From Craspedostauros australis (Eukaryota > Bacillariophyta > Bacillariophyceae > Mastogloiales > Achnanthaceae): a stretch of DNA of 64,000 nt. The position numbers and the translations under genes are program-made. Positions within the stretch are counted from its first letter, which is position 1. Each line of letters begins with the position of its first letter. Shown piece after piece: positions 2,648-56,549 of this stretch. A model generated the notes under the pieces. That model ran no database searches. It had not been told where the DNA came from and saw only the letters and a program-made list of their open reading frames with translations. The stretch is from assembly GCA_026770025.1 (NCBI GenBank), contig JAMXDE010000008.1, forward strand, positions 2,790,001 through 2,854,000, given 5' to 3'.

Positions 2648-2717
2648 CGAAGGGCTGGAGGGCGGGGAAGCATCAACACCCACCTCCGCAAGCCCAACGG
2701 ATGCAACCGGGGAGGAA

Positions 2718-10547: not shown

Positions 10548-10735
10548 TCGGTCATGCATCTTTGCCATCTTGTTCTGATGTGGAGATGACCCATGATGTG
10601 GCAATGACGTCTCCTGTATCGACGTCACTCATCACCATTCCATGGCTCTGTCGATTCCACATTCCATGATGAATCTTGAGGTCGTTGAAGGTGGTGTCAC
10701 TTCAGGTTTAGTTGGGAAGTAGATCATGGTAAACT
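10548..10735 (-). repeat. Diverged copia-type LTR relic
   Basis: This stretch follows the same order of blocks as the LTRs of the two copia elements further along: a CATCTTxGCC..TGxTCTGA block, a GACGTC-rich block, a CATTCCATG-type block and the GGTTTAGTTGGGAAGTA block. Identity is low outside these blocks. It is an old fossil, or belongs to a related LTR family, and no internal region was found beside it. Confidence 0.4.
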
Positions 10736-30427: not shown

Positions 30428-31220
30428 TGTTGGCAAGTTCCGCTCACGGTAACCTACGAACGTGGAAGATGGTGTTGGTTGATAGTCGTCTGTTTGCTAT
30501 TTCATTACGTTGGCACTCCGATACTCTCGGTGTCCGTTCGTTCTCTTGCCCGATGCTCTTGGCGCTTCAATCTGTTTCGTAGATTCAGTCTCCGACTATG
30601 AGTCGGTATGCAAGATCCTCTCCCGCTCCTCTCTGTATTCTCTCTCTCTCTCTCTCAACATCGTGTGTTCGTGCTACACGATACTCCATGTTCGATGCGT
30701 ACTCCGCATCCGACACTCTGTTCATTCAGTACTGGTTTCTACTCCATGAGTACTTACCATTTGAAGTTCACCTTCAGTATCCATGATCTTCATGAGTCAT
30801 CGCATCTTCGCCTCCTGCTCTGACTTGGAGACAGCTGTCGACGTGGTGACATGTTGACATCCTGTCGACGTCAGTAGGCGTCCTTCTGCTCTCCAGATGT
30901 CACGTTCCATTGGTGATGCAGTAGTCTGTCAGATGATATCGTCATCTGAGGTTTAGTTGGGAAGTACCTCGAGATTCTCTTGGTACCATTGATGCATGGA
31001 CGGACGATCTTCTGATTCTCTCAGAAATCGTTATTTGCAAATTTCCTCCAGAAATCTTGCCCCTTTTCGTGTGTTCCATTTCCCCTGTAATTCTGACGAA
31101 TCACAGTATACTATCGACACGAATGTAGTTATACCGTCCAAGTGCGTATGAGAGAATAACGGGTGAACGATGCACATATACACGTACATCTCGACATATA
31201 CTCACATGTACATCTCGACA
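30428..31220 (-). repeat. 3' LTR of copia A
   Basis: About 793 bp, TGTCGAG to CCAACA on the element strand, with a CT/GA microsatellite inside. Confidence 0.92.
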
Positions 31221-31240
31221 CCCTTCCTGTGTGCATTCGG

Positions 31241-34200
31241 TCATTCGAATGTTCTTGATGTGTCAAGGTACGACTTCTCGTGTTCGCGTTGTAAGTCGGC
31301 CTTGATGTTCTTGGTGAATCCGTCGCTTGTGTTCTGCTCGGATTTGACAAAAATGATTTCGATGGTTTTGTTGATTACCATATTCCTCACGTAGTGATGG
31401 CGCACGTCGATGTGCCGCGATTGTTGGGATGTTGATGGGTTCTTGGCGATGAAGATCGCTCCGATGTTGTCCACGCGGACCTTGATCGGTGTCTTCACTG
31501 GGACGCCCACACTTTCGAGTAACTGCACGACGAAGAAGATTTCTTTTGCCGCTTTGGAAAGGGCAACGCATTCTGCTTCGGATGAGCTGAGTGTGACGGC
31601 CTTCTGTGCCTTGGATCGCCAAAGGATTGGTACCTTGCACAGGTATAGGATGAATCCCCCTACGCTAATTCTTGTGTTCTTGTCTCCTGCATATTCGCTA
31701 TCGCAGAAGAGCTCCATGTCCCAGCCGTCGTCGTCTGGATGCGCTGGATGGATCTTCAATCCATAGTCCTTTGTATCGATCACATACTTGATGATCCGAT
31801 ACATCTCCTTCATTGCGGCCTTGGTGGGCCCGATCAATACCTTGGAGAGTTCCCTCACAGGGTTCGCGATATCTGGTCGCGAGTGCTTGATGAGGAAGAG
31901 TAGCATACCGACGCCTCGGCGGTATTCGGCATGTTCTTCCGGTCCGACCTTCTGTAGTCCATTATCTTCGGATGGTCGTACGATGATTTGACCCAGGGTT
32001 CCCGGTGTCCCATAGCGTTGCATCTTCTCAACCTTGGTTCCGAACTCTTCGATGAGGTGTCGGATGAGATGTGGTTGACGCAATGTCGCTCTAGTCTTGT
32101 CATGGTTCAGTTCGATGTTGCAGCTGAGCTAGTCTCCGAGTCCGCGCTCGATTGTCACCTTGAATTTGCTACCTTGGATCTCCTTCAGGAATGTCTCCAG
32201 TGCCTTGGAGTCTCCGCAACAGAAGCAATCGTCCACGTAGATGGCCACGATCATGCTTCCTTCGTTCGTCTTCCTGTAGAACAGGCACGGGTCTGCCGCG
32301 CTCTGTTCGAAGTTGATATTCTTGAGAGTCGATACCAACATCTTGAACCATTGTCTGGCGCTCTGCACAAGTCCGTAGATTGGCTTGTGTAGGGTCAGGG
32401 CTTCGTCTGGTTGATGATCCATCCCGTTGGGACAGTTCATGTAGATCTCCTCGTCGAGGTCTCCATGTAGGAATGCCGTTACGACATCGACGAGTGCGCA
32501 GTCCATCTTCTTGATCAGCATAATCACCATCATGACCCGATAGGTCACGTCATGGATGACGGGTGAGTAATGCTCTTGGAAGTCTACTCCTGCGACTTGT
32601 GAATAGCCACATGCAACGAGTCGTGCTCGATGTGTGCCGTCACGCTTCAGCTTGAAGACCCATTTGCACTTGCAGCATCTGCGGCCGCGTGGGATGGCGT
32701 CTCGTTTGATCTTGCTGTACACCTTGCGTGTATCCATGGAGTCGAACTCCTTCTTGATGGCTGCTCGATATCCCTTTCGATGGATAGGATCTGGGTGATT
32801 GAAGGCTCCATCGAATGTTGTAGGTTCGATGTGCTTCTCTGGTTCCTTGTTCTCGTCCTGCATCGACAATCCGATGTCGATCGCTGGTCTCTTGGTGATG
32901 ATTGCATTCATCCCGTATAATCCAGTCGTGCTATGGTGAGTGATTTCGATCTCTTCATCTTCATCTTCGATTTCTTCGTCATCTGTAGTTTCGTTGTTGG
33001 AGTCGTCGATCATCTCGTCGCTGAGTTCGTCACTCGCCTCATTGGATGATGAATCGCTCTCATAGCCTTCTTCCTTTCGACCTCGTTCGTTGAAGTCTGC
33101 GAGCTCGCGCAGAGCTCTGGGAATACTTTTCCCTGCAGTTGATTTGGGATTAGCTTCTCCCTTCCTGCCTCGTGCTTCGTGACGTTGGATCCTCTCCTTT
33201 CTAGCTATGTCACGCTTGCTTGGTTTGCTTGGTGGAGATCTGGATGGTGTGTCATGTGTAGACCTCGCTGGTGTGTTCGGAGGAGTGACGCCTGTGTCAT
33301 CGTCGGCTTCGTTGCCGGATGGTAGGATCTCATCATCTTCATGATTGGATTCGCTCCAATCTTCCTCGTCATTGTGGATTAGTTGAGTCGTTACTCCATC
33401 GTCCTCATTATCCTCATCATCGCTGTCTGATAGGATGTAGTACCTGTTGCTGTCAGCGAAAGATACTCTCTTCGCCTCTGATGTTCGACGCGTTGCCGTC
33501 CTTGGCGTTGCTCCCTTCCGTCCGATGGTTGTGAAGCCGTCTGCGTCCGTTGTTCCTGTTTCCTTGGATATGTTCGGTCCTGGTGCCCAGCCACGGAACT
33601 GTCCGTATGATTGGTTGAGCCACTTGATATCGCGTGAGCAGATGAGTGACTTGGTCGATGGTCTGTACATGTTGTAGACCCCTGATGCATGTTGGTGTGC
33701 ATATCCGATGAACACCATCTCTTCTCCTCTATTCTTGAGCTTGGCGGTGATCCCGCCGTAGGTAGTCTTCACAACACCCACCTCTCCAAACGTGCGGAGT
33801 GCATCCGCATATGGTGGATCGTTGCTGAAGAATTGTCGATGTGGTGACTCCTTCTGGTTCTTCGCTACGGTGATGTTGGCGATGGCGGTGGCAGTGCTAG
33901 CAGCTGCTGCCCACAGGCCATGCCTATACTCTTCGTCGAGCTGTGCTCCGTTGAGCATGGAGCGGATCTTGGTGTAGAGGTACGCGAACTTGCGTTCTAC
34001 TCTGCTGTTCTGTTGCGGCGTGTTCGATGCCGTGTATTCGAATTTCACGTTGAGTCCTGCATCGATGAGAATATCCTCCGTGGATTTGTTCTCTCCGCTG
34101 TTGTCACCTCGGAAGATGATCTGTTGGTCACCAGTCTGTGACTTGATCGTCTGGACGAATCGTTTGATGTATCCTGGTTGATCACTTTTGTTCTTGAGAA

Positions 34201-37200
34201 AGAAACTCCAGCAGTGATCCGTGCAGTCGTCCACGATCAGGGTCCAGTAGCGTTTATCTCCGAAGCTTATGTGTTTAGTGTAACTAATGTCAATGAAGAG
34301 CCGTTCGCCACGGCGAGTTGCTCTCGGAATGGTTGCCTTCGGAATATTCTTCACTCTTGCGTTCGCGACCGCGCAGTCGCGACACACCGGCATCTCGCCG
34401 ATGATTTTCCATCCGTACTGAGCGGCCGTCTGCTTCATGGTCTCGAGTGGCGCATGGCCAAGCATTCGGTGCAGGTTCACCGCGCTGATCTCCTTGGATG
34501 GATTCTTGACGATGGCTGTGCAAGCCTTGTCGTCGTCTGTTGGCATGATGGGATGCATCTGCACTCCCGTGATGAATCCGTTGGATGTGAGGAAGACTCG
34601 ATCGAACACGATCTTCGTTCCGGATCCATTGATGATGTCCATCAGAATGCCGTTGTTACCAAGCTGGTAACCGTTGTACAGAGCCTTGTTCGTAGAGAAA
34701 AGGTTCACCGCCATCTTGGGTGTGTACTTCACATCATCAAGCCGGATGACGTGACCAGTGTTGTCTCGCTGCTTGACCTTCAAGCGAATGGATCCCATCT
34801 TGGGAGAGTCCAGCTTCGTGCTGTCTCCCACTTGGACGAAGGACTTGATGTGCCGCATGTTGAAGAGAGCGGCGTCCGAGTTGACGATGTGACACGAAGC
34901 TCTGCTATCGGCGAGCCAGGTGTCCTTGTTGACCTTGTCCTTGTACTTGGTGCTCAGTTCGTGGAGTTGCTCCACAGCTGCCGCAGCTATCTCGTCGTTG
35001 AAGCTGCCGTCATCGTCGTCTTCGTGGACTCCATCTTCGTTGTATGGATTGCGATGGTCCTCATCGTCCATGTCATCGGGTAGTTGTGCATAATCCGATG
35101 GAATCGTACTGTTCCGATGCGATCCTGTGGCTGGATCGTATGGGTAGACGCGTGGTCGCTCGCGTAAGAGCACGCGCATGCATCCTCCAAGGATGTAATG
35201 CAGATCCGTCTCTGGGATCGTTTCCGAGTTGTTCGCTTCCAATATGCGGTTGATGATGATCGCATTGACGAGGATCTCTTCGATTGATTCGAAGTGCTCG
35301 GATAGGATGGATCCCATCATGTTCACCCATATTGGCATGAGTGCTCCTCGTGTGGTTCTTGGGAACATTCGCATCCCCGCTTCCATTACGGCGTCAAAGA
35401 TGAGCTGCTTTTGGATTATCAATGCTGTTGCTGTTGCATTCGGGATGGTGCTGTGACGGAGGAGGTAATCGACGCTGTTGGGATCCTCAATAGGTGGGAA
35501 GTCGATATTCCCTGGGTAGATGACACGCTCGTTTGGATTGAAGTTGTCATCTGGATGATTGCCGTCCTCGGATTCGTCGCTGTCATCCTCGTCGAAGATG
35601 CCCGATCTGTTGATCCCCGCCGCTGGAGGAGGAGGCGCCGCACCGCGGTCCGCCTCGTCGGCGTCGTCGTCGTCATCGCTCATGGCCTCTTCGATGTCGC
35701 TATCGTTGGCCTCGTTGTCCATCTCAGCTTCGTCGCCGTATGAACCGATCAGGTCGTGCGCGTTGAAGCAGCATTCGTAGCTCACTTCGCGTCTTGGATC
35801 CACCTCGTGGATGATTGGCTCCTCGCTGAGCCACTCCGGGACGATCTCATCGTCCTGCACTTCGTCGTTACTCCCAACGTACTCGAAGTTATCGAAGAAG
35901 GAGTCTTCGATGTAGTCGTTGGACACCAACATGCAGAGCGTCATGTCTTTCGCAGAGAGTACCATCTCGTGTCTGCTCTTGTCGTGTCCTTGTGTTGCTG
36001 TGTTGGCCTGTTCGTCGGCCTTCTTCTTCTCGTTGAACTTCTTCTTTCGGCACTCCGCCTCGCGATGTCCGAAGATGCTGCAGTAGTTACACTTGCCCTT
36101 GAAGCCGCTTCCCTTGTTGCGCTTTCCGTTCATCTTGTTGTTGTTGTTGTTGTTGTTGTTTTTCTTGTTGTTCGATTTCTTGCGTTCTGGGCAATCGGCG
36201 GATCTATGGCCATACACGCCACAGTTGTGACAAGCACCCTTGAAGTTACCGGTGCTTGTGAAGCTGGTGTCGTTGCTCTTCGTGTTACTGTCTTGGAAGT
36301 CGTCGATGTACGCCTTGCCTCCTTGATGAGTGGCGTATGCTGTGCGAAGTACTCCTCTGATCGTGTTGATGGTGACCAGTTCCGGATTAAACGTGAGTTG
36401 GTGATGGAAGTTCACGACGTGGGTTTTGTATTCCACGCTCACCGTGCTGAGGATCTGCATGATCATCTCCTCGTCCGTGATCTCGTACTTGACATCGTGG
36501 AGACGCGACCGTAAACCTTCGAGTCGCGTGATGTAGATGTCGGGGTCCGTGTCTCTCTTCATCTTTTCGTTGTTGAATTGGCGCTTGAGTTTGATCTTCG
36601 TCGCCGCGTCGGATGGTCGGAACTTCTCCGCGAGAACGTTCCACGCTGCGTGTGCGTCTCCTTCGGGGTAGTCGTCGGAGATGCATTGGTTGATGTACTG
36701 GATGGCCTGCTTACCTTTTCCTTTCTCTGCATCCATCATGAGGATCAGATCGCTGAAGCAGTCGCATCCCAGCTCATAGATCTCCTCCATCGCTTCCTTG
36801 TCCTCATCGGCGGCTGCCGCGATCTCGCTCACTGTTGGCACCTTGGTCTTGCCCAACATCACGTCTCTCGTCTTCTGTGCACGAGCGTATGCCTTCGTTT
36901 GGGACTCCCATGCGCTGTAGTCTTCCTGTTCACTGCTGAACATTGGCGCCTTGATGCGTCGCTTGTTCATGTTGGCTGATGTCGCCATGTTGGTTCGTTG
37001 TTTCGTCGTTGGTGCGCTCGCACCCTTGATTTCCGTTCGTTTCTGTGTTATCACTTTTTCGATTTTTGCCTGTTGTTGCGCGGAGATTGTTTTCGTCACA
37101 AATTCTCCCCCTGGTGGTGTCTCACTTTTTCCACCCTGTTTGGCTGTGCGAATGCTCTTCGTCACACCAGTCTCCTCTTGCTTGATCGCCTCAAGAATCC

Positions 37201-37393
37201 TCTTCTCCTTACGATGTAGTCTTGCAGACCGTTCTTCTTTGGTCTCGTCGATCGCGCTTGCGTCTGCGCCTGATAGGACAGTAGCCGCGGCTACTTCCTT
37301 CTCTTCTCGTGGTGGAGTCTCACTCGCACCTTCTTCTCTCTTGATAGCCGGATTGGACAGAGGGATGTCTTTCAATTCCTCTTCCTCGCTCAT
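31241..37393 (-). other. gag-pol coding region of copia A (broken)
   Basis: In element order it carries gag with two CCHC knuckles, an acidic spacer, aspartic protease, integrase, reverse transcriptase and RNase H, which is the copia order (integrase before reverse transcriptase). See element B for the domains in a copy that looks whole. Confidence 0.9.
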
Positions 37394-37475
37394 TCAGCCT
37401 GCTGCTCTTGAATGATGTTCGTCTTCCTCGCACGATACGATTCGCGGGCTCGCCCTGATCTATCGTTTATAAACG

Positions 37476-38266
37476 TGTTGGCAAGTTCCGCTCACGGTAA
37501 CCTACGATCGTGGAAGATGGTGTTGGTTGATAGTCGTCTGTTTGCTATTTCATTACGTTGGCACTCCGATACTCTCGGTGTCCGTTCGTTCTCTTGCCCG
37601 ATGCTCTCGGCGCTTCAATCTGTTTCGTAGATTCAGTCTCCGACTATGAGTCGGTATGCGAGATCCTCTCTCGCTCCTCTCTGTATTCTCTCTCTCTCTC
37701 TCAACATCGTGTGTTCGTGCTACACGATACTCCATGTTCGATGCGTACTCCGCATCCGACACTCTGTTCATTCAGTACTGGTTTCTACTCCATGAGTACT
37801 TACCATTTGAAGTTCACCTTCAGTATCCATGATCTTCATGAGTCATCGCATCTTCGCCTCCTGCTCTGACTTGGAGACAGCTGTCGACGTGGTGACATGT
37901 TGACATCCTGTCAACGTCAGTAGGCGTCCTTCTGCTCTCCAGATGTCACGTTCCATTGGTGATGCAGTAGTCTGTCAGATGATATCGTCATCTGAGGTTT
38001 AGTTGGAAAGTACCTCGAGATTCTCTTGGTACCATTGATGCATGGACGGACGATCTTCTGATTCTCTCAGAAATCGTTATTTGCAAATTTCCTCCAGAAA
38101 TCTTGCCCCTTTTCGTGTGTTCCATTTCCCCTGTAATTCTGACGAATCACAGTATACTATCGACACGAATGTAGTTATACCGTCCAAGTGCGTATGAGAG
38201 AATAGCGGGTGAACGATGCACATATACACGTACATCTTGACATATACTCACATGTACATCTCGACA
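37476..38266 (-). repeat. 5' LTR of copia A
   Basis: About 791 bp, same ends as the 3' copy. It should carry the element's promoter. Confidence 0.92.
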
Positions 38267-38690
38267 CCTGTATTCATGATCTTGATGCCCTTCGGTCATT
38301 GGATCTTTACCTTCTGCTTCTGACATAGAGACAGATGTCAACATGGTGACATGTTGACATCCTGTCGACGTCAGTAGGAGTCCTTCTGCTCTCCAGATGT
38401 CACGTTCCATTGGTGATGCAGCAGCCTGTCAGATGATATCGTCATCTGAGGTTTAGTTGGGAAGTACCTTGAGATTCTCTTGGTACCATTGATGGATGGA
38501 CGGACGATCTTCTAATTCTCTCAGAAATCTTGCTCATTTTCGTGTGTTCCATTCCCCTGTAATTCTGACGAATCACAGCATACTATTTAAACGAATGTAG
38601 TTGTACCGTCCAAGTGCGTATGAGAGAATAGCGGGTGAACAATGCACATATACACGTACATCTCGACATACTCACATGTACATCTCGACA

Positions 38691-39729
38691 CAAGTTAACA
38701 CACACATGCATTGTCATTGAGGGTTGCAAACCCAAAGGATTCAGATTATAAGGGTTATAGGGTCGTGTAGGATCGTCAGAGAGTACGCTACTCTTCTGTG
38801 GTTGGGCGATACCCGTGTTCGCATGTTAACCCCGTTTTAACCGTTTCACACGTATCCCTGTTTGTTGGTACCATGAGGAAACAAACAGTTTGATGGAACA
38901 GCGAGACAGGAAAGGAAGAAAGCGAATAGTGACGTCACATGGGCATTGCAAAGACCCTAATCCTCACGAAAGTGGCTGTCTCTATTGTGCCCAGACGAGT
39001 CTCTATTGCGGGGCTCCCCTTGGCATTCAGTCAGCCCGGCGCGTCCCAGTACCCAAGTTCTGGGGCCGCTACAACTGCGTCATGTCAATGTTGACTGTCA
39101 AATTTGTCGCAAGAAGGCCCAAAATCTCACTCGGGACATCCCCAGTGAGATTTCTCCAAATCTGAAGAACAGGAACCCTTCGCTCGCGGCGGCAGAGCCA
39201 GGACAGCATGTGCATGATTGCTGAGCAGTATAGCTGCACTGTGCTATAAAATGTATCAATGTTGGGGTGTTCACGCCAGGGCAACGCTCGCACAGGCACA
39301 GACCCAATTCAACTATTACGTATAGCAAGTCGCAAGAAGCGATACTCTACTCCAGGATACATTTCTCAGCACTAAACCGCATTCCCACCCACGCAAGGCC
39401 CAGCCAGAATTTGGAAACGTGTTTGATCCTGCAAAGCGCATTCAACTCTCGTTCTGTCTGAGCTTCTGTGACCTGATTGTGTTTGCATCACGGAGGCGAT
39501 GATCACTGAAGACCCTTCCGCCCCAGGGAGTTGAGGGAAATATGCATATATGTCATTTATATGGAAAATACGTTGTATCACTGTTCTACCAACAAACCCC
39601 GTTCGGGTTTGATTTCTGCTCGTCAGTCCAATGTCGAACGCATACTGTAGTCTACGAAAAGGCAGCGCAGCTGTTGACGACACGATGAAGTGATTGTGGC
39701 ATTCAATAGGATGTGGATCACTCTTGACT
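38691..39729. other. No gene recognised; one strong palindrome
   Basis: This lies between the old LTR and the Harbinger-like transposase. It holds a near-perfect 32-bp palindrome at 39122-39153 and short frames only. The transposon's terminal repeats might lie here but I could not match them by eye. Confidence 0.45.
39122..39153. repeat. 32-bp near-perfect palindrome
   Basis: AAATCTCACT is paired with AGTGAGATTT, and inside it GGGA with TCCC, leaving one C/C mismatch and a 2-base centre. It could be a hairpin terminator, a cruciform or a protein-binding site. Confidence 0.7.
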
Positions 39730-40814
39730 CTAGTAATTAACTTGGTATGGACTGAAGCCTCCAGATTGAATAGACAGTTGTGTGAGAAAGGCAATTGTTT
39801 TGAACACCTCCTTATGGCGTTCTCTATCTGACCTGTATGTGTTCCCCAAGATTGCCCATCTCTTGAATTGCCGATTGATTGTTTCATGGCGCGCACGAGC
39901 ATTGGACTTTGCTCGTCGGTTCGACTTCGACACATAGCTGGTTGGCTTCAGCACATGGGGCCCACCATACCCCCCATCAGCCTCAACACATTCTCCCTTC
40001 ATCAGTCTGTTCGCGAGGAAGGCATTGAATATTTTCTGATCGGACCACCTGCCACAGGGAAAAGGACCGATTGCCCAAACAATGCTGCCTGTTTGAATTG
40101 AGATTGCTACTTCGTATCTTAATCCAGACGTCTTGAACTTGTGGCTGTACCACTTTGTGCTGAAAGGCGTTGGCTCGCGGATCCGAAAGTCAGTGCCATC
40201 CACAGTAACATGACAAGTTCGAGGTTTTGAAGAATTCAAGCGGTTTCGCCATTTGATCTGGAAGGAAGTGTGAGAAGATGTTGAATTCAATACAGGCATT
40301 GGGCACATTGCAGAAGGCAGAACGAGCGCAGCACAAAGTCACTTACCACTTCTTTGTAACATTGCTGAATGCAGGCAATCATTTGCCAGATCCACTTTCG
40401 AAGTGTGTGTGGATCTGCTCCGAAAGTCGCCTTCAATACATCGTAGGTGGGGTAGTTCTTGAGAAAGTGGAGAGCCCAGAACAGATGCTTTGGTTGTGCC
40501 TTGGCTGGGAGCACGCATCGATTCCATACCTCCTTGCACAGCTTGGGCGTAATGCCAAACCATGCAATGAATGCTCGTCTTGATGTTTCCGACCAGCCAC
40601 CCTTGGGGGGCAGGCTCCCCATCAGGAAGAATCCTATGGATTCGAAGTCAGCAGAGGAGTGCTGGGACCGAAGCAACTGTTGTTGTTGCCTCGTCATCCT
40701 GATGGTCTCACTCTTGTCCTTCAGCCTTGATCTTCGATTGCTTGACTTGCCAGCCTTGCTGGCAGAGATGCTGTTGCATGTCATGGTGATGGCGATGGAC
40801 GACGAACCAGCCAA
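39730..40814 (-). CDS. PIF/Harbinger-like DDE transposase, two exons
   Basis: Exon 1 (40814-40347) and exon 2 (40257-39730) join in phase 0 across an 89-bp intron with a GTAAGT donor and a TTCCAG acceptor, giving 331 aa. The N-terminal part is basic and helical (SWSETSRRAF-like segment, HFLKNYPTYDVLKATFG) as in the helix-turn-helix part of Harbinger and IS5-like transposases. The catalytic domain shows the three acidic residues: VDGTDF, then EADGGYGG, then RHETINRQFKRW. YSHKFKTSGLRYEVAI is the other conserved block. Nothing breaks the joined frame, so the protein may be functional. I could not find the element's inverted ends or a Myb-type partner gene next to it. Confidence 0.85.
40258..40346 (-). 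other. Intron of the Harbinger-like transposase
   Basis: 89 bp, GTAAGT...TTCCAG. Removing it joins CYKEV to IKWRNR without a frame change. Confidence 0.85.
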
Positions 40815-41660
40815 TGGGCGTTGACATCAAGACCGCGTGCGTTGGATGGAGCAGCACGTCTCTGATCGATTGCGGATGTTGATGGTTGTGTGTGTGTATG
40901 CGTGTGAACTAGTGGTGATGCCTCGGTTGATTGCCTTGGTGTTGCGAAGGTGCGGCGCTTGGTGATCATGCCATTTTGGTTTGATGGCGATGGCGGAAAT
41001 TGGAATTGTGAGCAGAGTGTTGTTGTCGATGGCGTTGCATGGGTGTGACACGCTGCCAACCGATGTCATGATTCGCGATACAGTTTTTTCACGTTGCGCT
41101 GCGAAGTGCAGCGAGTGGAACGACTCACGTCGGTTCTCACGCGCCAATACAACGTGTGGGGGGTTCTTGTGCTGTCACTTGTTCTGCTTGTTGTCAACCA
41201 TCGGCCAGCAACCTCACCAAATCACAGTCTTCCCTCTTGCTCTCGAGCGTTCAAGCCCGGAGCTTGCCCTGCTGACTCGGCTTGGCGGATACATTTTCAC
41301 GCCAGCACATATTCGCAACTACGGCGACGAAGCTATTGTATCTATGTTTCTGTAGTACGGCAGGAGCATGCATCATTCAAATGCAGTATTGTACATGGAA
41401 ACAAATGACGTTGATGTGTGTGATTCAAATTGTTACAAACGCTGCAATCAACGGTTGTCTCCTGTGCTCTGCTATACAAAATTAGTACGACCGCTTTGCA
41501 TGAATCATAGTGGTTGCTCATGTCTGGTGCGCGGTATTGGCTCTGGTGCAACGCCTGTGCTCTCACAACGGAATTAGTGAATGTTTGGTACATCTATTGT
41601 CGTGTCCAGGCGTTACTCAATATGACAGAGACCGTTACTTGTCATGACCGGTTCGATGAC
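40815..41660. other. No gene recognised
   Basis: Upstream of the transposase on its strand. GTGTGTGT-type simple sequence lies near 40885-40910; other frames are short and without motifs. Confidence 0.45.
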
Positions 41661-41665
41661 ACAAT

Positions 41666-42010
41666 CGTGAGGGAAAAAACGCTTTTGTGGGGGAAAAAAC
41701 GGGGTCCGTAGGGGAAATAAACAACACCATCAGGGAAATAACTGCATCGTGGGGGAAATTTGTGCATCGTTAGGGAGTTTTGGGGAATAAAATTCCCTTG
41801 CAATTTCCCTCACGAATATGTCGTTGGCCTCGTACATTTACGTGTGATTGTTGACATCATCATATTATTGCAGTTACAGAATTTCCCCTACAACTCCAAA
41901 ATTTCCCTTACGATGCTGTAATTTCCCTTGCATTCTCATAATTTCCCCTACGACCCCCAATTTTTCCCCTGCAATCTAGACAATTTCCCCTACGACACTG
42001 GGAATTCCCT
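41666..42010. repeat. Phased inverted array of TTTCCC/GGGAAA motifs
   Basis: Left half: GGGAAA (or GGGAGT) begins at 41671, 41691, 41712, 41733, 41753 and 41773. Right half: TTTCCC (or ATTCCC) begins at 41882, 41902, 41922, 41942, 41963, 41984 and 42004, with two more in the centre at 41792 and 41804. Spacing is 20-21 bp in both halves. The shared unit is about ATTTCCCCTACGATGC, and the left half is its complement. Units are too short and regular for CRISPR. It may be a foldback element, the subterminal binding sites of a transposon, or an array for a DNA-binding protein. Confidence 0.85.
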
Positions 42011-42278
42011 TGCAACAATGCTTCCCGCCAACCATGTACTGTGCCCTGGATAGTGCTACACTTCTGATGTTAGTTAATCAATGCCTGCTCAGTTCTCACC
42101 TGGGTTTGCTCAACTTGGTGGGGATGGTTGCTTCTGAAGTGCCATGACAACGGCAAATTTGCGATGATGTTGCAGAAAATTATGCAAGTTGCTTGACTTG
42201 TTGCGATTCTTCCCGTTCATACGCTGCTTTCTCATGCTTGGTTTGTGGTGTGAGGGATGGTCTCACAACACAACAACA

Positions 42279-43939
42279 ATGACACCTCGCAACAGCAACA
42301 ACAAGCCAACTCGGCATAAAACACATCCCATCTTCAACAAATCCGGTTTCCGCAAATGGTACCGAGATTCTGACGACGCTGTGTACATCATCAAAGGTCT
42401 TATCAACAACTCCATCCCACAGACCTTCAGTGAGTTCATCAAGACACACACCGACTGGGTTGATTCAAAGGGCAAGAACTACCTCCGCTGAAACCTCGCA
42501 AACAACTTCAAAAGCTGTGTCGATCGCTTCAAAAAGCATCAGTCTCGGCGAGAACGTAAGTGCCAACAGTGATGAGATGAATGATGGCATCATTTGTGTG
42601 GTGATGTGATTTTCCTGTCTTGCGATGTGAATTTTGTGATGGCCACTCACATCCCTCCCGCTTCTCTTTCTCAGCCTTTGAGAAGACATTCCGACAACGT
42701 CTTGGATTGCCAGGAACACCCGAACGCAATCGAGACGTTCCGGGACTCGATCAGCTCTCCCTCCAGCCAGGAAGCGACAGCAGTCCTCCACGTGGAAACG
42801 AACAGAACAACAACAACAACACGGAAAATCAAAGCAACAACAACGCACCATCCGCCAACACCGACGAAAGCAGTGAAGACGAAGACTTCGAACTTGGCGA
42901 CGACGACGATCAATCGTTGATCACAACGGAGTCGTACGACACCATCGAAAGCAACGACAACATCCCTCCCATCACTCAAGACGCCAGTCCGGTCGCCCAT
43001 CTGCCACGCGCTTCCAACGAATCCATCGATAGTGGTGACGAAGACGAGTACACCTTCGAGACCGTCGAATCCAGTGACGACGTCGAGGTTGTTGGCACAT
43101 CAGCACCACCTCCTCGTGTCCTCTTCAAAGAGCTCCCTCTCCAATCCAAGCCCAGCACAAGCACACAGGACGCCAAGATGCCTGCACAAAAGGCCGCCAT
43201 CAAGAAGCCTGTCGAGAACAGCGACACGGATCTTGCTGTGTCCCAGAAGGTTCAGGGCTGCGGTGGGAAGGTCTCGACTGAGATCCCTGGATTGCACTTC
43301 ATCCCAATCCAGGTTCCAGATCCCAACTCTTCTGCAGCCCACGCAAGCATGCGAACTGGCTACATTGTCTACTTTGAGGTTCCTTTTGGAGTGACCGTCG
43401 ATTCTGTTGAATTCAAGATTGTGGATGAAAGCACAATCAGCGTCAGTTTCGCGAAAAACGTTCGAAACTACAACACCAAATACAGGGTGACAGCGGAGCA
43501 TCTGCGAGTTGGGAACCTGGACCCCCAGATCCAAAGCTACTTTGATATCTTCTGGGGCCACTACAAGGCTGAGCATGACACAGAGAAGCATGCAGTCAGT
43601 CTGACTGACACATTCCCAGGCAAGGTCGAGCTGGATTTTGTGAATCCTGAGAATGGATACGCCAAGGTTGGTGAGGACGATGATCCGATCACGCTCCTTC
43701 ACTTCCAAGCAGATCCTGATCGTGTTGGGAAGATCTTTGAGGATGATTCTGATGATGATGACTTGCCAATCTTCTATGTCATGTATGCATTTACTCTTGG
43801 TGTCCGAGATACCAAAAAGGTGAAGGCAACGCCCGTTGGCAAGAAAAAGGTGCGGCGTGCCCGACGTGCTGCAGCGCACAGTGAGAAGGACATCACCAAG
43901 GATGACATGTCCATCCATCCCAATGAAGCCACATCTTAG
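42279..43939 (+). pseudogene. Two-exon gene of unknown family with an in-frame TGA in exon 1
   Basis: Exon 1 (42279-42555, from ATG) and exon 2 (42675-43939) join across a 119-bp intron (GTAAGT donor, CTTTCTCAG acceptor) in one frame, except for a TGA at 42489-42491, where a Trp (TGG) would fit the surrounding sequence. Exon 1 codes for a Trp- and Lys-rich helical domain (SGFRKWYRDSDDAVYIIKGL). Exon 2 has a Gln/Asn run, an acidic Ser-rich stretch, and a beta-rich C-terminal domain of about 190 residues (TGYIVYFEVPFGV and on), perhaps of the p23/Hsp20 fold, ending in a basic tail. Apart from the TGA everything is open, so it is a very recent pseudogene, a readthrough gene, or a sequencing error. 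Confidence 0.65.
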
Positions 43940-44854
43940 TGCAAACAGTGCACAATCGCATCTAGCACCAACATCAACACAAACCGTAACAGTAATAGTA
44001 GTAGTAGTAGCAGTTCTGAACAACAGCAAGTTTTGTGAAATCGAGACAGCTGATTTGTGTTGTGTTGCAAAACATTCGAGATTGTTCGATCCGATTCTGA
44101 GATGTCGAATCATGGGTGGAGATATGTCCCGGATGTCAATTTCCCTCAACTCCCAGTAGTTGGTGAGGCTTTTCTCTCTCCTTTTCGCTGGGAAGGTGCA
44201 AACCCAGACACCGATTCATCGCTTGCGTTATTGCGTTGAAGCGATCAAGATGTTGATGTGCTTTCCGCTGCTCTACTCCAAGAGTGTTGTTTTACCGAAT
44301 GAGTTGTGGTGGTTACATGTTGCGTGTTGTGTGTTGCGTGCCAAAACACAGAAAGTGTGCACCCTTTTGGAAATCAGACCACGACAAAGTGCTCTCGTAC
44401 CACAGACGAGTATTGCGGATCAAGAAGAACGACAGACGATGGCATGTGGAGATGAGCAAGGGTGGCATGTTCCAAGTCTGCCTGTCCCACCATCCTCACA
44501 TGCGCTTTGCTCGTGTGTAGTTCAGACCCAATGGATGATGGACGTTGGGGAGGGTCATGCTGCACCATAAATGTTGGGCATCGGCATCGATCCACGGAGT
44601 CTTTCCATCCAACGGTGATGTCGTCAGTTGTGAAGGTCCCAGGTCGTGAAGGAGCTTTGGCCCCCTCGACATCATAACATTCTCGTACCGTGTTGCCTCA
44701 TGCACAACATCGAAGACGTGAGCAAAATGGTCCAAACAAACAACAAATCAAACTCTTCATCTCATAAATTCATCCAAGTTGTCAACCAATAACACCAAAC
44801 AAACAACTATCAACCCTGAACGATCAATCACCAACCACCAAGTACCGAGCAACC
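43940..44854. other. Intergenic; short TAG repeat
   Basis: This holds the tail of the previous gene with a GTA/TAG run (43992-44010) and the presumed promoter of the secreted protein gene. Two frames of 130 codons or less have no motif. Confidence 0.45.
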
Positions 44855-47380
44855 ATGATCTACACCAAGACAGCCTTCGCGACCTTTCTCGCTCTCGCCG
44901 ACACGGCAACGGTCGACGCCGTGCTCCGCGGCAACAGGATTCCCGTGGATCCAACCGAGGAACTTCACATGATGATGATGAAGACCCGCATCCTCAAGGG
45001 CGCCGGCGGTGACACGAACAAGAGCAACAAGAACAACCAAGTGCCACCCACTGAAAACCCAACTGATCCAGAAACGACCCCGCCAACCGCGTCGCCGACC
45101 TCCCAGCCCACTCTCCTACCAACTGCCAAACCATCAGCTGCCCCAACCGTCTTCGATTCCACCATCTCCGTTGCCTGCAAGCCGGATGGCGCGACCGATC
45201 TCACAATGGAAGAGAGAAGCGCCAAAACCATCATCTGTAACTCTGCCAAGCCATCCTGCCGCGAGGCCATCACTGCCGTCAAGGAATCCGAGCAGCTGCA
45301 GAACTTCTTCGGATGCGCAGGAGACCTCGGCGAAGGAGCTGCACGCAAGCTCTTCAGCAAGTACGCATCCAGCGATATCCTTTCTGGCCAATTGGCCCTG
45401 GTCGCTACCACCAAGCCAGTCCTCGTCACCCAACGACCAGATGAAATGAACGCAGCGTGCGCGGCCATGGCTGCGATGCAATCGCCTGCCGTTGCCACCC
45501 CATGCTGCCAAGGATCCTCGGGATGCACCTCAGTCACCGGTTCTGCCTCCAACTCCCCTCCATTCATGACCGTCGCCATCACTGCATGCACCGGCGACAG
45601 CGCCTGCAAGGACATGGGTCCCAACTCCCTCATTCTCGATTCCTCCTGCACTGGCGCGAGTGCATGCGAGTTGATGAACGAAAATGAAATCAACCCGTCC
45701 ATCACAGGAGTCACCTTCGTCGGTGAGATGGCATGCACCACCCCTCAATCTTGTGAGGGAGTGGGACGTCGTTCTCATGGTGATGTCACCATCCAGACTG
45801 GTGCATGCGTTGGGACAGACGCATGCAAGGCAGCTGGACGCCGCGTCGTGCAGAAGACCACCCGAATCCGCAGCCACATCGACATCGGTGAGAATGCGTG
45901 CGTCGGCAGCAATGCCTGCAAGGACGCCCATTCCACTGTCAACTATGGTACTGCTGGCAAGCGTGCAGGCAGCCTGACCATTGGCGCTGGTGGCTGTGCC
46001 GCTGATGGGTCATGCGAGAAGATGAGCTTCAATGACAAGATGACAACCGACCTCGTCGTCCCTCCTGGTGGATGCGGCAGTGTCGAAGGCTGCAAGGGAT
46101 GCATGACGAAGACGGAGTGCGACTCCGACGAAGTCTACATCATCAGCGATGTTGATGGGGCCTGTCCAAAGGGAGGCAGTGACAGCAACATGAATCCCAC
46201 TGGTGACAGAGTGGATGAGTACTGCATTGGCAAGGACACCTTGCCCACAGACTGTCCAACCTTTTCCCCCACCCCTTTCCCAACACCTGCCACATCACCT
46301 CCCACATCATCCCCCACTGCTCCAACTGCTTCGCCGACTTCGGCACCTACTTCGGCTCCAACATCAGCTCCAACATCGGCTCCAACTCCCCAGCCATTCC
46401 TGGATGCCCTCGGAACACCAAGCACATCCGCGGGAATGTCCCTTCTCTCCACTATCCAAAACAAAGCAGATCTTCTTGGGATCTTTGAAAACCAGGCAAC
46501 CATTGCTGACGGCGTCGCTCTCTTCAATACCATCAGCGAAAAGACCGGCGTCCTCAAGATCTTCAGCGCGGCCGCCGCTGCCACTGGTGAGATGTTCACT
46601 GGAACCGCTGATGATGCTATGGCTTGGTGTGGTATGGCAGAACGCACATGCTGCGTCGGAACCGAGGCCTGCTCCTGGACCGGGATCGCGTCTATCGCAT
46701 CCAACAGTTGCATTGGGGACAAGGCCTGCAAAAGCATCGAGACTCAGTCCATGATCTTCCAGGCATCCTGCCTCTCTGGCACTTCTCCCGATAAAGACGC
46801 ATGCTCCTTCTTCAACTTCAACTCTGGAAGTGACAAGGCCTCCATCATTGGACCAGGATCGTGCACTGGAAACCAGGCATGCTGGTCCTTCGCGCAACAG
46901 TCCAACGGCGACGCCATTATTGGCGCAGAATCATGCGCTGCAGCAAGAGCCTGCGTTGCCATGGGTGCTGGGCCAGAAGACTACAAGACCATAACACCCA
47001 CTAAGGGCAACGGCACCACCGACAACAAGCGTGTGTCCACCACTATTGTGGGAGCCGGGTCCTGTGTCGGTACCTCTTCGTGCGCATACATCAACGCTCT
47101 CTACTACTCCTGCGGTAACAACTACAATCAGTTCGAGGGAGACACAATGATTGGTGATGGTACTTGCGTGCCGGGGGCATCCTGTTTCTACCTGGGCTAC
47201 GACTACGACTTTAACGCGGACATCACCCTCTCCGACGGCGTGTGCAACGATACCCCCATCATTTCATTCGCCAAATGCAACCGATGCAAAAGCGGTATTT
47301 TTGCAGGCAACTCCTGCGAGCCTCTCACCGCTGTCTTGACCATTGCCTCCGGCAGCTCTTGCCCAGCCACCTGCACCTAA
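44855..47380 (+). CDS. Secreted cysteine-rich repeat protein with Pro/Thr-rich linkers
   Basis: The protein has 841 aa from an ATG in good context (AACCATGA). The N-terminus has a short hydrophobic signal-like stretch (TAFATFLALADTATVDA) and then a Pro/Thr/Ser linker (about 60-97). Two blocks of solenoid-like repeats follow, about residues 200-440 and 575-830, each opening with a CC-G-x-C signature (TPCCQGSSGC; RTCCVGTEAC) and made of units of about 25-35 residues with the pattern I-x2-G-x-C-x-G-x2-A-C. The blocks are separated by a second linker of repeated TSAP units (about 470-510). Regular cysteine pairs and a GxxxI period suggest a disulfide-held beta-helix. It is likely a cell-wall or extracellular-matrix protein of a diatom-specific family. 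The PTSAPT linker is a common diatom feature. Confidence 0.8.
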   Translation: MIYTKTAFATFLALADTATVDAVLRGNRIPVDPTEELHMMMMKTRILKGAGGDTNKSNKNNQVPPTENPTDPETTPPTASPTSQPTLLPTAKPSAAPTVFDSTISVACKPDGATDLTMEERSAKTIICNSAKPSCREAITAVKESEQLQNFFGCAGDLGEGAARKLFSKYASSDILSGQLALVATTKPVLVTQRPDEMNAACAAMAAMQSPAVATPCCQGSSGCTSVTGSASNSPPFMTVAITACTGDSACKDMGPNSLILDSSCTGASACELMNENEINPSITGVTFVGEMACTTPQSCEGVGRRSHGDVTIQTGACVGTDACKAAGRRVVQKTTRIRSHIDIGENACVGSNACKDAHSTVNYGTAGKRAGSLTIGAGGCAADGSCEKMSFNDKMTTDLVVPPGGCGSVEGCKGCMTKTECDSDEVYIISDVDGACPKGGSDSNMNPTGDRVDEYCIGKDTLPTDCPTFSPTPFPTPATSPPTSSPTAPTASPTSAPTSAPTSAPTSAPTPQPFLDALGTPSTSAGMSLLSTIQNKADLLGIFENQATIADGVALFNTISEKTGVLKIFSAAAAATGEMFTGTADDAMAWCGMAERTCCVGTEACSWTGIASIASNSCIGDKACKSIETQSMIFQASCLSGTSPDKDACSFFNFNSGSDKASIIGPGSCTGNQACWSFAQQSNGDAIIGAESCAAARACVAMGAGPEDYKTITPTKGNGTTDNKRVSTTIVGAGSCVGTSSCAYINALYYSCGNNYNQFEGDTMIGDGTCVPGASCFYLGYDYDFNADITLSDGVCNDTPIISFAKCNRCKSGIFAGNSCEPLTAVLTIASGSSCPATCT

Positions 47381-48159
47381 GTGGCCTGTGGGAACAGGAG
47401 CACGAACACATCCCTCCTCCGGTTCCACACCAAATCCAGGTCTTGAAGGGTTTGGGCCAGCCACCTTACGGATAACAACAAAATCACCCTCTTCATTGGG
47501 TCTTCAGCACAACCAAAGTATCGAAAGGATCTCGCCGTCCATCGGCATACAGTATCCACGGACTTGGGCGAGAGCGTTGCTGGGACAAGAAAGCGATGTA
47601 GCGCTCAATTTGACCAGTGCCTGACAGCCCCAACGTGTGGTGCACTGTAAAACAATTCATATCACTCATCCTCATACACTCGTAAAACTAAATACGACCA
47701 CTTGAGTGACGGGACCTGCAGTCCGTCCTGGGGTGCCGGCAACATACGGGGCTTTCGACCAAAACACTCACATATTCATAAACTAAAATATAAGCTGCGT
47801 GATGCACGCCGATTTTGCTTTAATGTCTTAGTTTCAGTTGTATGGAACCCTTCGTTTCGGGACGCGCACGGAATTTGGCGTTTCAGCCTCATCATCGTTT
47901 GACCTGTTCGAACATATTGTCTCAGCGAGTAACCGTTATTACACGTTAACATTCGAATTCAAATTATTGACTCTGGTCGCACGTGGCGAATCTCCTCACA
48001 TTTCGGCACAGAATCAATCTTTGCTTTTCCATGGTGGTGTGCTGTGCTTGTGACATGTTCATGTAGTGCTCGTATCATTACCTTCTTGCCCTCCTCCTGC
48101 TCAGTTCACTTTCATCACTAGTAGTCTTCTCCATCTGCCCATCAGTATCAATCAGCATC
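47381..48159. other. Intergenic, with one arm of a 100-bp inverted repeat
   Basis: No gene is recognised. The repeat arm at 47698-47795 is described separately. The last 150 bp should be the leader of the small ORF that follows. Confidence 0.5.
47698..47795 (+). repeat. 100-bp repeat, left copy of an inverted pair
   Basis: It starts CCACTTGAGTGACGGGACC and ends in CACATATTCATAAA plus an AT-rich tail. It matches the complement of 56762-56864 at about 85% by eye. Confidence 0.85.
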
Positions 48160-48512
48160 ATGCCCGTCTCTCCCACGAAAGCTGCTTCCAAGGATGCCAA
48201 TCCATCTCCCTCCAAGAAGCATCGTTTGACCTCCTCTCCATTTGTGTGCTCCTTCCCATCCGATCTGTTCGATGGCAAGGAACTGTTCACACCATCTACT
48301 GCTGAGAAGCTGTTGCCTCCCTCGGATATGGATGGTAAGCAGCACATTCTTCCACCTACAACAGACAAGGTCTTGCCTCCTGTGCTCAAAGGCGCGACCT
48401 TCGACAACGAGCACGACGTTGAGACTCTTACCAATGACGAACAGAATCGCACACTCCAACAAGAACGCAATGAACACAACCAATACAACAATTACCCAAC
48501 CACCTACGAACG
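48160..48512 (+). CDS. Small host ORF interrupted by copia B
   Basis: From ATG 48160 (context ATCATCATG) the frame codes for about 118 residues of a hydrophilic protein (MPVSPTKAASKDANPSPSKK, later FPSDLFDGKELFTPST and a Gln/Glu/Asn-rich end) and then runs into the LTR of element B. It contains repeated LFTPST/LLPP-type segments but no domain I know. Beyond the element, 56376-56549 carries a Glu-rich open stretch ending in TAA; whether it belongs to the same gene is unclear. The gene is presumably inactivated by the insertion in this haplotype. Confidence 0.5.
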
Positions 48513-49303
48513 TGTCGAGATGTACATGTGAGTATATGTCAAGATGTACGTGTATATGTGCATCGTTCACCCGTTATTCTCTCATACGCACTTGGACGGT
48601 ATAACTATACTCGTGTCGATAGTATGCTGTGATTCGTCAGAATTACAGAGGAAACGGAACACACAAAAAGGGGCAAGATTTCTGGAGGAAATTTGCAAAT
48701 AACGATTTCTGGAAGAATCAGAAGATCGTCCGTCCATGCATCAATGGTACCAAGAGAATCTCGAGGTACTTTCCAACTAAACCTCAGATGACGATATCAT
48801 CTGACAGACTACTGCATCACCAATGGAACGTGACATCTGGAGAGCAGAAGGACGCCTACTGACGTCGACAGGATGTCAACATGTCACCACGTCGACAGCT
48901 GTCTCCAAGTCAGAGCAGGAGGCGAAGATACGATGACCCATGAAGATCATGGATACTGAAGGTGAACTTCAAATGGTAAGTACTCATGGAGTAGAAGCCA
49001 GTACTGAATGAACAGAGTGTCAAATGCGGAGTACGCATCAAACACGGAGGATCGTGTAGCACGAGCACACGATGAAGAGAGAGAGAGAGAGAATACAGAG
49101 AGGAGCGAGAGAGGATCTCGCGTACCGACTCATAGTCGGAGACCGAATCTACGAAACAGATTGAAGCGCCAAGAGCATCGGGCAAGAGAACGAACGGACA
49201 CCGAGAGTATTGGAGTGCCAATGTAATGAAATAGCAAACGAACGACTATCAACCAACACCATCTTCCACGATCGTAGGTTACCGTGAGCGGAACTTGCCA
49301 ACA
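48513..49303 (+). repeat. 5' LTR of copia B
   Basis: 791 bp, TGTCGAG to CCAACA. It contains a GA microsatellite and should hold the element's promoter. Confidence 0.93.
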
Positions 49304-49385
49304 CGTTTATAAACGATAGATCAGGGCGAGCCCGCGAATCGTATCGTGCGAGGAAGACGAACATCATTCAAGAGCAGCAGGCTGA

Positions 49386-52300
49386 ATGAGCGAGGAAGAG
49401 GAATTGAAAGACATCCCTCTGTCCAATCCGACTATCAAGAGAGAAGAAGGTGCGAGTGAGACTCCACCACGAGAAGAGAAGGAAGCAACCGCGGCTACTG
49501 TCCTATCAAGCGCAGACGCAAGCGCGATCGACGAGACCGAAGAAGAACGGTCTGCAAGACTACATCGTAAGGAGAAGAGGATTCTCAAGGCGATCAAGCA
49601 AGAGGAGACTGGTGTGACGAAGAGCATTCGCACAGCCAAACAGGGTGGGAAAAGTGAGACACCACCAGGAGGAGAATTTGTGACGAAAACAATCTCCGCG
49701 CAACAACAGGCGAAAATCGAAGAATCGACAACACAGAAACAAACGGAAACCAAGGGCGCGAGCGCACCAACGACGAAACAACGAACCAACATGGCAACAT
49801 CAGCCAACATGAACAAGCGACGCATCAAGGCGCCGATGTTCAGCGGTGAACAGGAAGACTACAGCGCATGGGAGTCCCAAGCGAAGGCATACGCTCGTGC
49901 ACAGAAGACGAGAGACGTGATGTTGGGCAAGACCAAGGTACCAACAGTGAGCGAGATCGCGGCAGCCACCGGCGAGGCCAAGGAAGCAATGGAGGAGATC
50001 TACGAGCTGGGATGCGACTGCTTCAGCGATCTGATCCTCATGATGGATGCAGAGAAAGGAAAAGGCAAGCAGGCCATCCAGTACATCAACCAATGCATCT
50101 CCGACGACTACCCTGAAGGAGACGCACACGCAGCGTGGAACGTTCTCGCGGAGAAGTTCCGACCATCCGATGCGGTGACGAAGATCAAACTCAAGCGCCA
50201 ATTCAACAACGAAAAGATGAAGAGAGACACGGACCCCGACATTTACATCACGCAACTTGAGAGTCTACGATCGCGTCTCCACGATGTCAAGTACGAGATC
50301 ACGGACGAGGAAATGATCATGCAGATTCTCAGCACGGTGAGCGTGGAATACAAAACCCACGTCGTGAACTTCCAACACCAACTCACGTTCAATCCAGAAC
50401 TGGTTACCATCAACGCGATCAGAGGAGTACTCCGAACAGCATACGCCACTCATCAAGGAGGCAAGGTGTACATCGACGACTTCCAAGACAGCAATACGAA
50501 GAGCAACGACACCGGCTTCACAAGCACCGGTAACTTCAAGGGTACTTGTCACAACTGTGGCGTGTATGGCCATAGATCCGCCGATTGCCCAGAACGCAAG
50601 AAACCGAACAACAAGAAAAACAACAACAACAACAACAAGATGAACGGAAAGCGCAACAAGGGAAGCGGCTTCAAGGGCAAGTGCAACTACTGCGGCATCT
50701 TCGGACATCGCGAGGCGGAGTGCCGAAAGAAGAAGTTCAACGAGAAGAAGAAGGCCGACGAACAGGCCAACACAGCAACGCAAGGACACGACAAGAGCGG
50801 GCACGAGATGGTACTCTCTGCGAAGGACATGCCGCTCTGCATGTTGGTGTCCGACGACTACATCGAAGACTCCTTCTTCGATAACTTCGAATACGTCGGG
50901 AGTGACGACGAAGTACAGGATGATGAGATCATCCCGGAGTGGCTCAGCGAGGAGCCAATCATCCACGAGGTGGATCCAAGACGCGAAGTGAGCTACGAAT
51001 GCTGCTTCAACGCGCACGATCTGATCGGTTCATACGGCGACGAAGCTGAGATGGACGACGAGGCCAACAATAGCGACATCGAAGAGGCCATGAGCGACAA
51101 CGACGACGACGCCGACGAGGACAGCGCAGATGAAGACGATGAGGCGGACCGCGGCGCGGCGCCTCCTCCTCCAGCGGCGGGGAACAACAGATCGGGCATC
51201 TTCGACGAGGATGACAGCGACGAATCCGAGGACGGCAATCATCCAGACGACAGCTTCAATCCAAACGAGCGTGTCGTGTACCCAGGGAATATCGACTTCC
51301 CACCAATCGAGGATCCCAACAGGTCCAACTACCTCCATCGTCATGACACCATCCCATATGCAACAGAAACAGCATTGGTGATCCAGAAGCAACTCATCTT
51401 CGATGCAGTGATGGAAGCAGGAGTGAGCCTGTTCCCAGGAATCGAACGAGGAGTACTCAGACCGATATGGGTCAACATGATGGGATCCATCCTATCCGAG
51501 AACTTCAGATCGATTGAAGAGATTCTCGCCAATTCAGTTGTGATCAATCGCATACTGGAAGCAGCCGAGACAGAGACAATCCCAGAGACGGATCTTCATT
51601 ACATCCTTGGAGGATGTATGCGCGTACTCTTACGCGAACGACCACGGGTCCATCCATACGATCCAGCCACAGGATCTCATCGGAACAGTACGATTCCATC
51701 GGACTACGCGCAATTACCCGATGACATGGATGACGGAGATCATCATCCTCCATACAACGAAGATGGAGTCCACGAAGACGATGATGACGGCAGCTTCAAC
51801 GACGAGATAGCTGCGGCAGCTGTGGAGCAACTCCACGAGCTGAGCACCAAGTACAAGGACAAGGTCAACAAGGACACCTGGCTCGCCGACAGCGGAGCTT
51901 CGTGTCACATCGTCAATTCAGACGCCGCTCTCTTCAACGTACGGCATATCAAGTCCTTCGTCCAAGTGGGAGACAGCACGAAGCTGGATTCTCCCAAGAT
52001 GGGGTCCATTCGCTTGAAGATCAAGCAGCGAGACAACACTGGCCACATCATCCGGCTCGATGACGTGAAGTACACACCGAAAATGGCGGTGAACCTTTTC
52101 TCCACGAACAAGGCTCTGTACAACGGTTACCAGCTTGGTAACAACGGCATTCTGATGGACATCATCAACGGATCCGGAATGAAGATCGTATTCGACCGAG
52201 TCTTCCCCACATCCAACGGATTCATCACGGGAGTGCAGATGCATCCCATCATGCCAACAGACGATGACAAAGCTTGTACAGCTATCGTCAAGAATCCATC

Positions 52301-55556: not shown

Positions 55557-55576
55557 CCGAATGCACACAGGAAGGG

Positions 55577-56369
55577 TGTCGAGATGTACATGTGAGTATA
55601 TGTCAAGATGTACGTGTATATGTGCATCGTTCACCCGTTATTCTCTCATACGCACTTGGACGGTATAACTATACTCGTGTCGATAGTATGCTGTGATTCG
55701 TCAGAATTACAGAGGAAACGGAACACACAAAAAGGGGCAAGATTTCTGGAGGAAATTTGCAAATAACGATTTCTGGAAGAATCAGAAGATCGTCCGTCCA
55801 TGCATCAATGGTACCAAGAGAATCTCGAGGTACTTTCCAACTAAACCTCAGATGACGATATCATCTGACAGACTACTGCATCACCAATGGAACGTGACAT
55901 CTGGAGAGCAGAAGGACGCCTACTGACGTCGACAGGATGTCAACATGTCACCACGTCGACAGCTGTCTCCAAGTCAGAGCAGGAGGCGAAGATACGATGA
56001 CCCATGAAGATCATGGATACTGAAGGTGAACTTCAAATGGTAAGTACTCATGGAGTAGAAGCCAGTACTGAATGAACAGAGTGTCGAATGCGGAGTACGC
56101 ATCAAACACGGAGGATCGTGTAGCACGAGCACACGATGAAGAGAGAGAGAGAGAGAGAATACAGAGAGGAGCGAGAGAGGATCTCGCGTACCGACTCATA
56201 GTCGGAGACCGAATCTACGAAACAGATTGAAGCGCCAAGAGCATCGGGCAAGAGAACGAACGGACACCGAGAGTATCGGAGTGCCAACGTAATGAAATAG
56301 CAAACGAACGACTATCAACCAACACCATCTTCCACGATCGTAGGTTACCGTGAGCGGAACTTGCCAACA
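55577..56369 (+). repeat. 3' LTR of copia B
   Basis: 793 bp, nearly identical to the 5' copy. Confidence 0.93.
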
Positions 56370-56549
56370 CGAACGCAAACAATACTGACGCAGAGATCGT
56401 GCCTCCATGACAGACAACAAACAGAAGAGGAGGAAATCGCGCTGCAACGAGAAGAAAACGAAACATGGGAGCGAATTGCATGCGAGACTCAAACGATGAA
56501 GGAAAATACGAAATCTCCTGAGATGGTGGAACAAAATGTGAGGACATAA

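Follow-up and report, generated by a model that had tools for sequence, protein, structure and literature searches.

The window, that is, the whole stretch of 64,000 nucleotides analysed here, contains a 4,627-bp PIF/Harbinger-type (PHIS) transposon (39527-44153), and inside this transposon lies an array of short repeated units in two facing arms. The array occupies part of the gap between a transposase gene on the minus strand and a divergent partner gene on the plus strand, with 880 bp between its edge and the transposase start and 263 bp to the partner start; the transposase stop lies 188 bp inward from the left TIR, and the partner stop 199 bp inward from the right one (Table 1). The Harbinger-type region is flanked by a pair of oppositely oriented Copia-type LTR retrotransposons (approximately 30428-38268 and 48512-56384), which are about 95-96% alike; the right one has a single uninterrupted 2056-codon frame. 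Just outside the left Copia element is a piece (38319-38670) with 92-95% likeness to LTR-side sequence, and a 43-bp stretch at 10696-10738 resembles a portion of the Copia LTR region at 72-74%. Two long adjacent frames of 807 and 1804 codons (224-8291) are perhaps a non-LTR retrotransposon; the longer of these, which is the second, weakly matches an endonuclease-reverse transcriptase family (E 0.00032, below the curated cut-off).

The ends of the transposon were recovered in a search for inverted pairs with at least 15 of 16 bases matching in the interval between the two Copia elements (38401-48500). This search gave two loci: one pair at 40484/47507 with 15/16 matching bases, and one with 16/16 that corresponds to the element ends. 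The 16/16 match begins GGG at 39526, and the 15-bp repeat with equal outer 3-mers begins GGA; the CAG duplication next to it is read from one insertion only. Among 300 first-order Markov sequences of this 10.1-kb stretch, perfect 15-bp pair windows numbered 26 (0.087 per stretch, with overlapping windows counted apart), 2 of which had equal outer 3-mers (0.007 per stretch), compared with 2 and 1, respectively, in the real stretch. No further TIR copy with fewer than 3 mismatches is present in the window, the TIR-with-flank pattern had 0 matches in viral contigs, and the whole element had no blastn match to phage records.

The introns and start codons of both element genes were inferred from the sequence. 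The ORF at 39730-40308 matches the Pfam family DDE_Tnp_4 (PF13359) with an E value of 3.2e-10 (40.3 bits, cut-off 24.8) over profile positions 1-157 of 158, and also matches DDE_Tnp_1 (E 1.1e-6). We take PF13359 to be the family marking PIF/Harbinger, and the candidate catalytic triad presumably consists of the D in VDGTD, the D in EADGGY, and the E in RHETIN. Transposase exon 1 has no Pfam match. Relatives of the catalytic exon were absent from viral contigs, none of 71 pattern stretches in genome contigs was confirmed as one, and no solved structure is similar to the transposase exon by sequence. The partner gene is 513 codons long and is interrupted by a single in-frame stop at 42489; the partner protein may therefore not be produced from this copy. 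Its exon 1, the candidate DNA-binding domain, is modelled as helical with low confidence (mean pLDDT 53.9) and shows no Pfam match to Myb/SANT, the domain type expected of the second gene in this superfamily; the partner ORF at 42620-43939 is likewise without a Pfam match. The model of the 3' part (43178-43939) has several strands and very low confidence (mean pLDDT 37.8). A search of viral contigs for relatives of this 3' part gave 12 stretches, 0 of them confirmed, and comparison by sequence with solved structures gave three weak matches of unrelated name. As read from the sequence, the matching TIRs, the CAG duplication (target duplications in this superfamily are short, mostly 3 bp), the DDE transposase, and the second gene correspond to a PIF/Harbinger-type element with two genes.

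Table 1 Features of the transposon and of the array within it (window coordinates; gene models as predicted from sequence)
Feature	Position	Strand	Details
Target-site duplication, left copy	39524..39526		CAG
Left TIR	39527..39541	+	GGAGTTGAGGGAAAT, 15/15 perfect
Transposase exon 2	39730..40257	-	175 codons + stop
Inferred transposase intron	40258..40346	-	89 bp, GTAAGT...CAG
Transposase exon 1	40347..40784	-	146 codons from inferred ATG
Left arm of array	41665..41780	-	Six units, 20-21 bp apart; 14-mer starts 41665, 41685, 41706, 41727, 41747, 41767; spacing 20, 21, 21, 20, 20
Inner pair of units	41790..41815	+	Starts 41790 and 41802, 12 bp apart
Inter-arm gap	41816..41879	none	64 bp, 37.5% GC
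Right arm of array	41880..42015	+	Seven units, 20-21 bp apart; 14-mer starts 41880, 41900, 41920, 41940, 41961, 41982, 42002; spacing 20, 20, 20, 21, 21, 20
Partner exon 1	42279..42555	+	Candidate DNA-binding domain
Partner exon 2	42675..43939	+	
Right TIR	44139..44153	-	Reverse complement of GGAGTTGAGGGAAAT
Target-site duplication, right copy	44154..44156		CAG

The array unit reads AATTTCCCYTRCRA. An earlier reading made from the letters alone (hereafter the sequence-only reading) had described six GGGAAA-type units facing seven TTTCCC-type units, and its positions and spacings agree with those found here; the innermost left unit (41767) reads GGGAGT rather than GGGAAA. The 70-bp core that it placed between the arms holds the two additional plus-strand units, which reduces the gap proper to the length given in Table 1. 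Its further proposal that all units lie on one face of the helix holds for a helix of approximately 10.2 bp per turn, the only pitch at which the mean steps of the arms (20.4 and 20.33 bp) are exactly two turns and the phase drift along the arms is 0 and -14 degrees, but fails at 10.5 bp per turn, where the drift reaches -103 and -137 degrees. The array region (41600-42050) is non-coding, since each of the six frames contains 4-6 stops. An inverted 19-bp pair (41658-41676/41804-41822, 89% complementary) has one half at the outermost unit of the left arm and the other at the second unit of the inner pair, and runs past the unit; a nested MITE with these ends was considered and rejected by eye, the outer 3-mers being unequal. 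The heptamer ATATGTC occurs on the plus strand at 39548 and 44122, close to the two transposon ends, and at 41816, on the border of the array core; the window has 10 copies with both strands counted.

The array is a real, non-random feature that is known from one copy only. A 14-base unit pattern with up to 2 mismatches has 13 matches in the window, of which 11 fall inside the array and 2 outside it, compared with a mean of 1.93 (sd 1.54) in dinucleotide shuffles, none of which (n = 100) reached 13. The longest run of TTCCC at 20- or 21-bp steps is 7 in the real window, and 1 or 2 (163 and 37, respectively, of 200) in shuffles. In a scan with a 14-base weight matrix built from the 13 arm units, ranks 1 to 15 of 127,974 window positions all go to the 15 array units. 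Leave-one-out scores are fairer than these ranks because 13 of the 15 ranked units built the matrix; they range from 7.9 to 21.8 bits, the lowest belonging to units 41727 and 41767 (7.89 and 7.96), which score no better than the best chance sites. Within-arm identity is 0.78-0.86 for bases 1-8, 0.57-0.67 for bases 9-14, and 0.31-0.32 for spacer bases 15-19, as against 0.25 in 2000 random sets drawn from the element, 9-10% of which reached the spacer values. The 5' half of the unit is thus the better conserved one, as had been noted from the letters, and TTTCCC is its strongest core. Retention of the motif with loss of the spacer is unexpected for a mere slipped repeat, and the sites therefore look selected.

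The same spacers bear on the possibility that the inverted arms fold back in RNA or DNA, as a source of small RNA or as a cruciform, and are a relic of an inverted duplication. The single-strand DNA fold of -71 kcal/mol is far below the shuffle mean of -38.6 (sd 4.26, n = 100, z -7.61, 0/100 as low), although facing arrays of any kind fold so. Spacer similarity peaks in the hairpin register (0.425 versus an off-register mean of 0.300), but this effect is weak, being reached by 5.6% of 5040 permutations. Further, stem pairing would not favour motifs that are kept between near-random spacers, and Rfam gave no match at gathering score in 39400-44300. We consider a folding function very unlikely, while a weak trace of inverted arm duplication may remain in the spacers.

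The array unit recurs at both ends of the transposon. With the first 11 bases of the matrix, the right end ranks 7 and the left end 10 of 127,980 window positions, and the two ends are the only sites of at least 15.9 bits outside the array in the whole window. The right-end 11-mer AATTTCCCTCA (44138-44148, plus strand) agrees fully with unit 41802 over bases 1-11, and the minus-strand 11-mer at the left end, TATTTCCCTCA (39532-39542), matches the array unit; both extend one base past the 15-bp TIR. In random sequence a site of this score was present in 6 of 200,000 15-mers and in 6 of 300,000 16-mers, the latter being the fairer control because of that additional base. Outside the array, 12 of 63,595 window 16-mers hold such a site, which is the amount that the two ends give. 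The two end matches count as one coincidence, since the ends copy each other, and with the full 14-base unit the ends rank just 38 and 40 of 127,974, bases 12-14 being different.

The left end is oriented as the left arm and the right end as the right arm. This arrangement, with every arm oriented like the end on its own side, is what would be seen if the array were to gather transposition proteins centrally and capture the ends, one arm per end, with no part in gene regulation. The array and the element also share their midpoint (41840.0), but this coincidence was spotted afterwards, may be due to chance, and is given little weight. Sites approximately 2.1 kb from the ends are, moreover, without precedent in the literature as far as it was surveyed, and a purely synaptic role appears improbable to us, though worth keeping in view.

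A search of sequence collections for two units 18-21 bp apart returned 2 viral and 24 prokaryote stretches. Letters were inspected for 5 of the 26 (L002 and stretches of L001, L006, L010, and L020), and of the 26 contigs at least 4 (L002, L006, L010, and L020) contain units similar to those of the array at steps of about 21 bp. A looser unit count on all 26 stretches (up to 3 mismatches, run without a shuffle control) gave a densest 400 bp with 15 units in L020, 10 each in L002 and L010, 8 each in L014 and L023, 7 each in L006 and L015, and at most 6 in the rest. The likeness is partly by construction because the pattern selects such units. Arrays of this kind are not peculiar to the element, and we claim no kinship between them and the array.

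Three of these look-alikes (L006:325-401, L010:1597-1828, and L020:1409-1821) are bacterial tandem units of approximately 21 bp that resemble the array unit; at least one of the six frames is open in each, so coding repeats are possible there. Their similar core fits an explanation of the array as a decaying minisatellite without a function of its own, of a kind arising in bacteria too, and TRF indeed gives a period of 20 in either arm. Neutral decay should nevertheless strike motif and spacer equally, and here the motif alone is kept; the match to both transposon ends is also left unexplained, which makes this account very unlikely. In the IMG/VR contig L002 (2740-3110), TGTAAGGAAA-type and TTTCCCTTACA-type units face one another across a stretch that includes an AT-rich run, and this could be a replication origin or a regulatory array. 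This layout and the AT-richer core of the present array are consistent with a replication-origin-like site, at which an initiator would bind facing iterons. However, L002 came from searching for this very motif, the four L002 proteins scanned had no PHROG match, and recurrence of the unit at the transposon ends is not accounted for by an origin; we regard this as the least probable of the explanations considered, and a highly improbable one.

Taken as a whole, the data lead us to believe that the array is probably a group of clustered internal sites to which the end-binding protein of the enclosing PIF/Harbinger-type transposon binds. We go no further than this because similar arrays exist without a known transposon link. 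The published part of the PIF/Harbinger record that we surveyed also places binding sites in terminal or subterminal positions, not centrally, which speaks against our reading. The sequence-only reading had offered a binding platform for a transposase or recombinase among its guesses; this is the one we favour, since the array lies within a Harbinger-type element and shares part of the terminal motif, with binding itself predicted from the letters. A nucleosome or replication role, another of its guesses, finds no direct support in the sequence. Its statement that nothing in the usual list of features explains the array no longer holds, since the enclosing element accounts for the location. 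A foldback element, which it had also suggested, does not fit: the long, internally repetitive TIRs of that type are absent, the arms being central and internal and the ends merely 15 bp.

Under this binding-site interpretation, the DNA-binding protein of the element would recognise ATTTCCCYYR both at the ends and in the array. The most likely recogniser would be the partner product, by comparison with Harbinger3_DR and Ping/Pong; the alternative is the transposase. The two-turn spacing could let many copies of the protein bind side by side, and the clustered sites would concentrate transposition proteins locally. Their most likely use would be autoregulation of the two divergent genes; the array may also titrate or load the protein, which would then capture the ends.

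Harbinger-type transposons need two proteins, and to our knowledge the balancing of these proteins and their delivery to the ends are poorly understood. With end-like sites between the two genes, feedback control and capture of the ends can be framed as a concrete, testable hypothesis, and the array also suggests which motif the DNA-binding protein might recognise. A CWG-duplicating element would in addition be placed in what, to judge from the proteins of the window, may be a diatom or a similar alga. The central position, the two facing phased arms, and the number of sites are unusual here. A stronger version, in which a phased, two-faced array of the element's own terminal motif at its exact centre sets the expression of the divergent genes and also assembles the proteins that capture the ends, is put forward tentatively and is in our view rather unlikely. 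This version takes the element to be of a target-site class that its describing paper reports from animals only. If true, this would be a control architecture undescribed for PIF/Harbinger in the surveyed literature. We found no description of such an array in the portion of the Harbinger literature covered; with coverage this partial, the case for novelty is weak.

Harbinger-like elements have been recorded in the diatom T. pseudonana (PMC2806351), and those described from Ectocarpus have ANT and TNA targets (PMC12477816). By its CAG duplication, two genes, short TIR, and 4.6-kb length, the present element fits NuwaI, although we do not file it as a member on these sequence features. According to the available part of the describing paper (PMC4482050), the NuwaI group of the PHIS (PIF/Harbinger, ISL2EU, Spy) superfamily was found in 16 animal genomes only, with a CWG target duplication (CAG on both sides here, in one insertion), TIRs of 12-61 bp (15 bp here), two genes including a DDE transposase as in the present element, and an average length of approximately 4462 bp (4627 bp here). 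NuwaI TIRs usually begin GGG, whereas the TIR here begins GGA; if one ignores the duplication, it begins GGG; the same part of that paper makes no mention of a central array (PMC4482050). The Myb/SANT domain, undetected by Pfam in our element, may be a further difference from NuwaI.

With zebrafish Harbinger3_DR and rice Ping/Pong the element shares a transposase accompanied by a separate DNA-binding protein, which is putative here. In Harbinger3_DR, a 9-bp motif of the subterminal regions is recognised by the Myb-like protein (PMC9710019), the ORF1 protein is reported to bind the TIRs and the transposase (PMC2836001), and the Myb-like protein and the transposase interact and are both needed for transposition (PMC9710019; PMC2836001). 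A domain of the Myb/GT1 type generally contacts some 6-8 bases (PMC9921582), which is the size of the TTTCCC core. The differences are that a facing central array is not described for these systems in the sources as far as available, and that the target duplication of mPing is TAA (PMC2836001) and CAG here; mPing and mPong are reported to be without a common internal promoting sequence (PMC9921582). Galileo/Foldback elements carry tandem repeats with extra transposase-binding sites (PMC3688188), but belong to the P-element superfamily and have these repeats inside long terminal repeats. In maize Spm/En (CACTA), short repeated motifs are bound by the element's own protein TnpA, which can block transcription (PMC2613891). 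This element is of another superfamily, and its sites are subterminal, near the ends, and not central between divergent genes; by analogy, the TnpA sites of maize Spm would be the closest working counterpart of the array.
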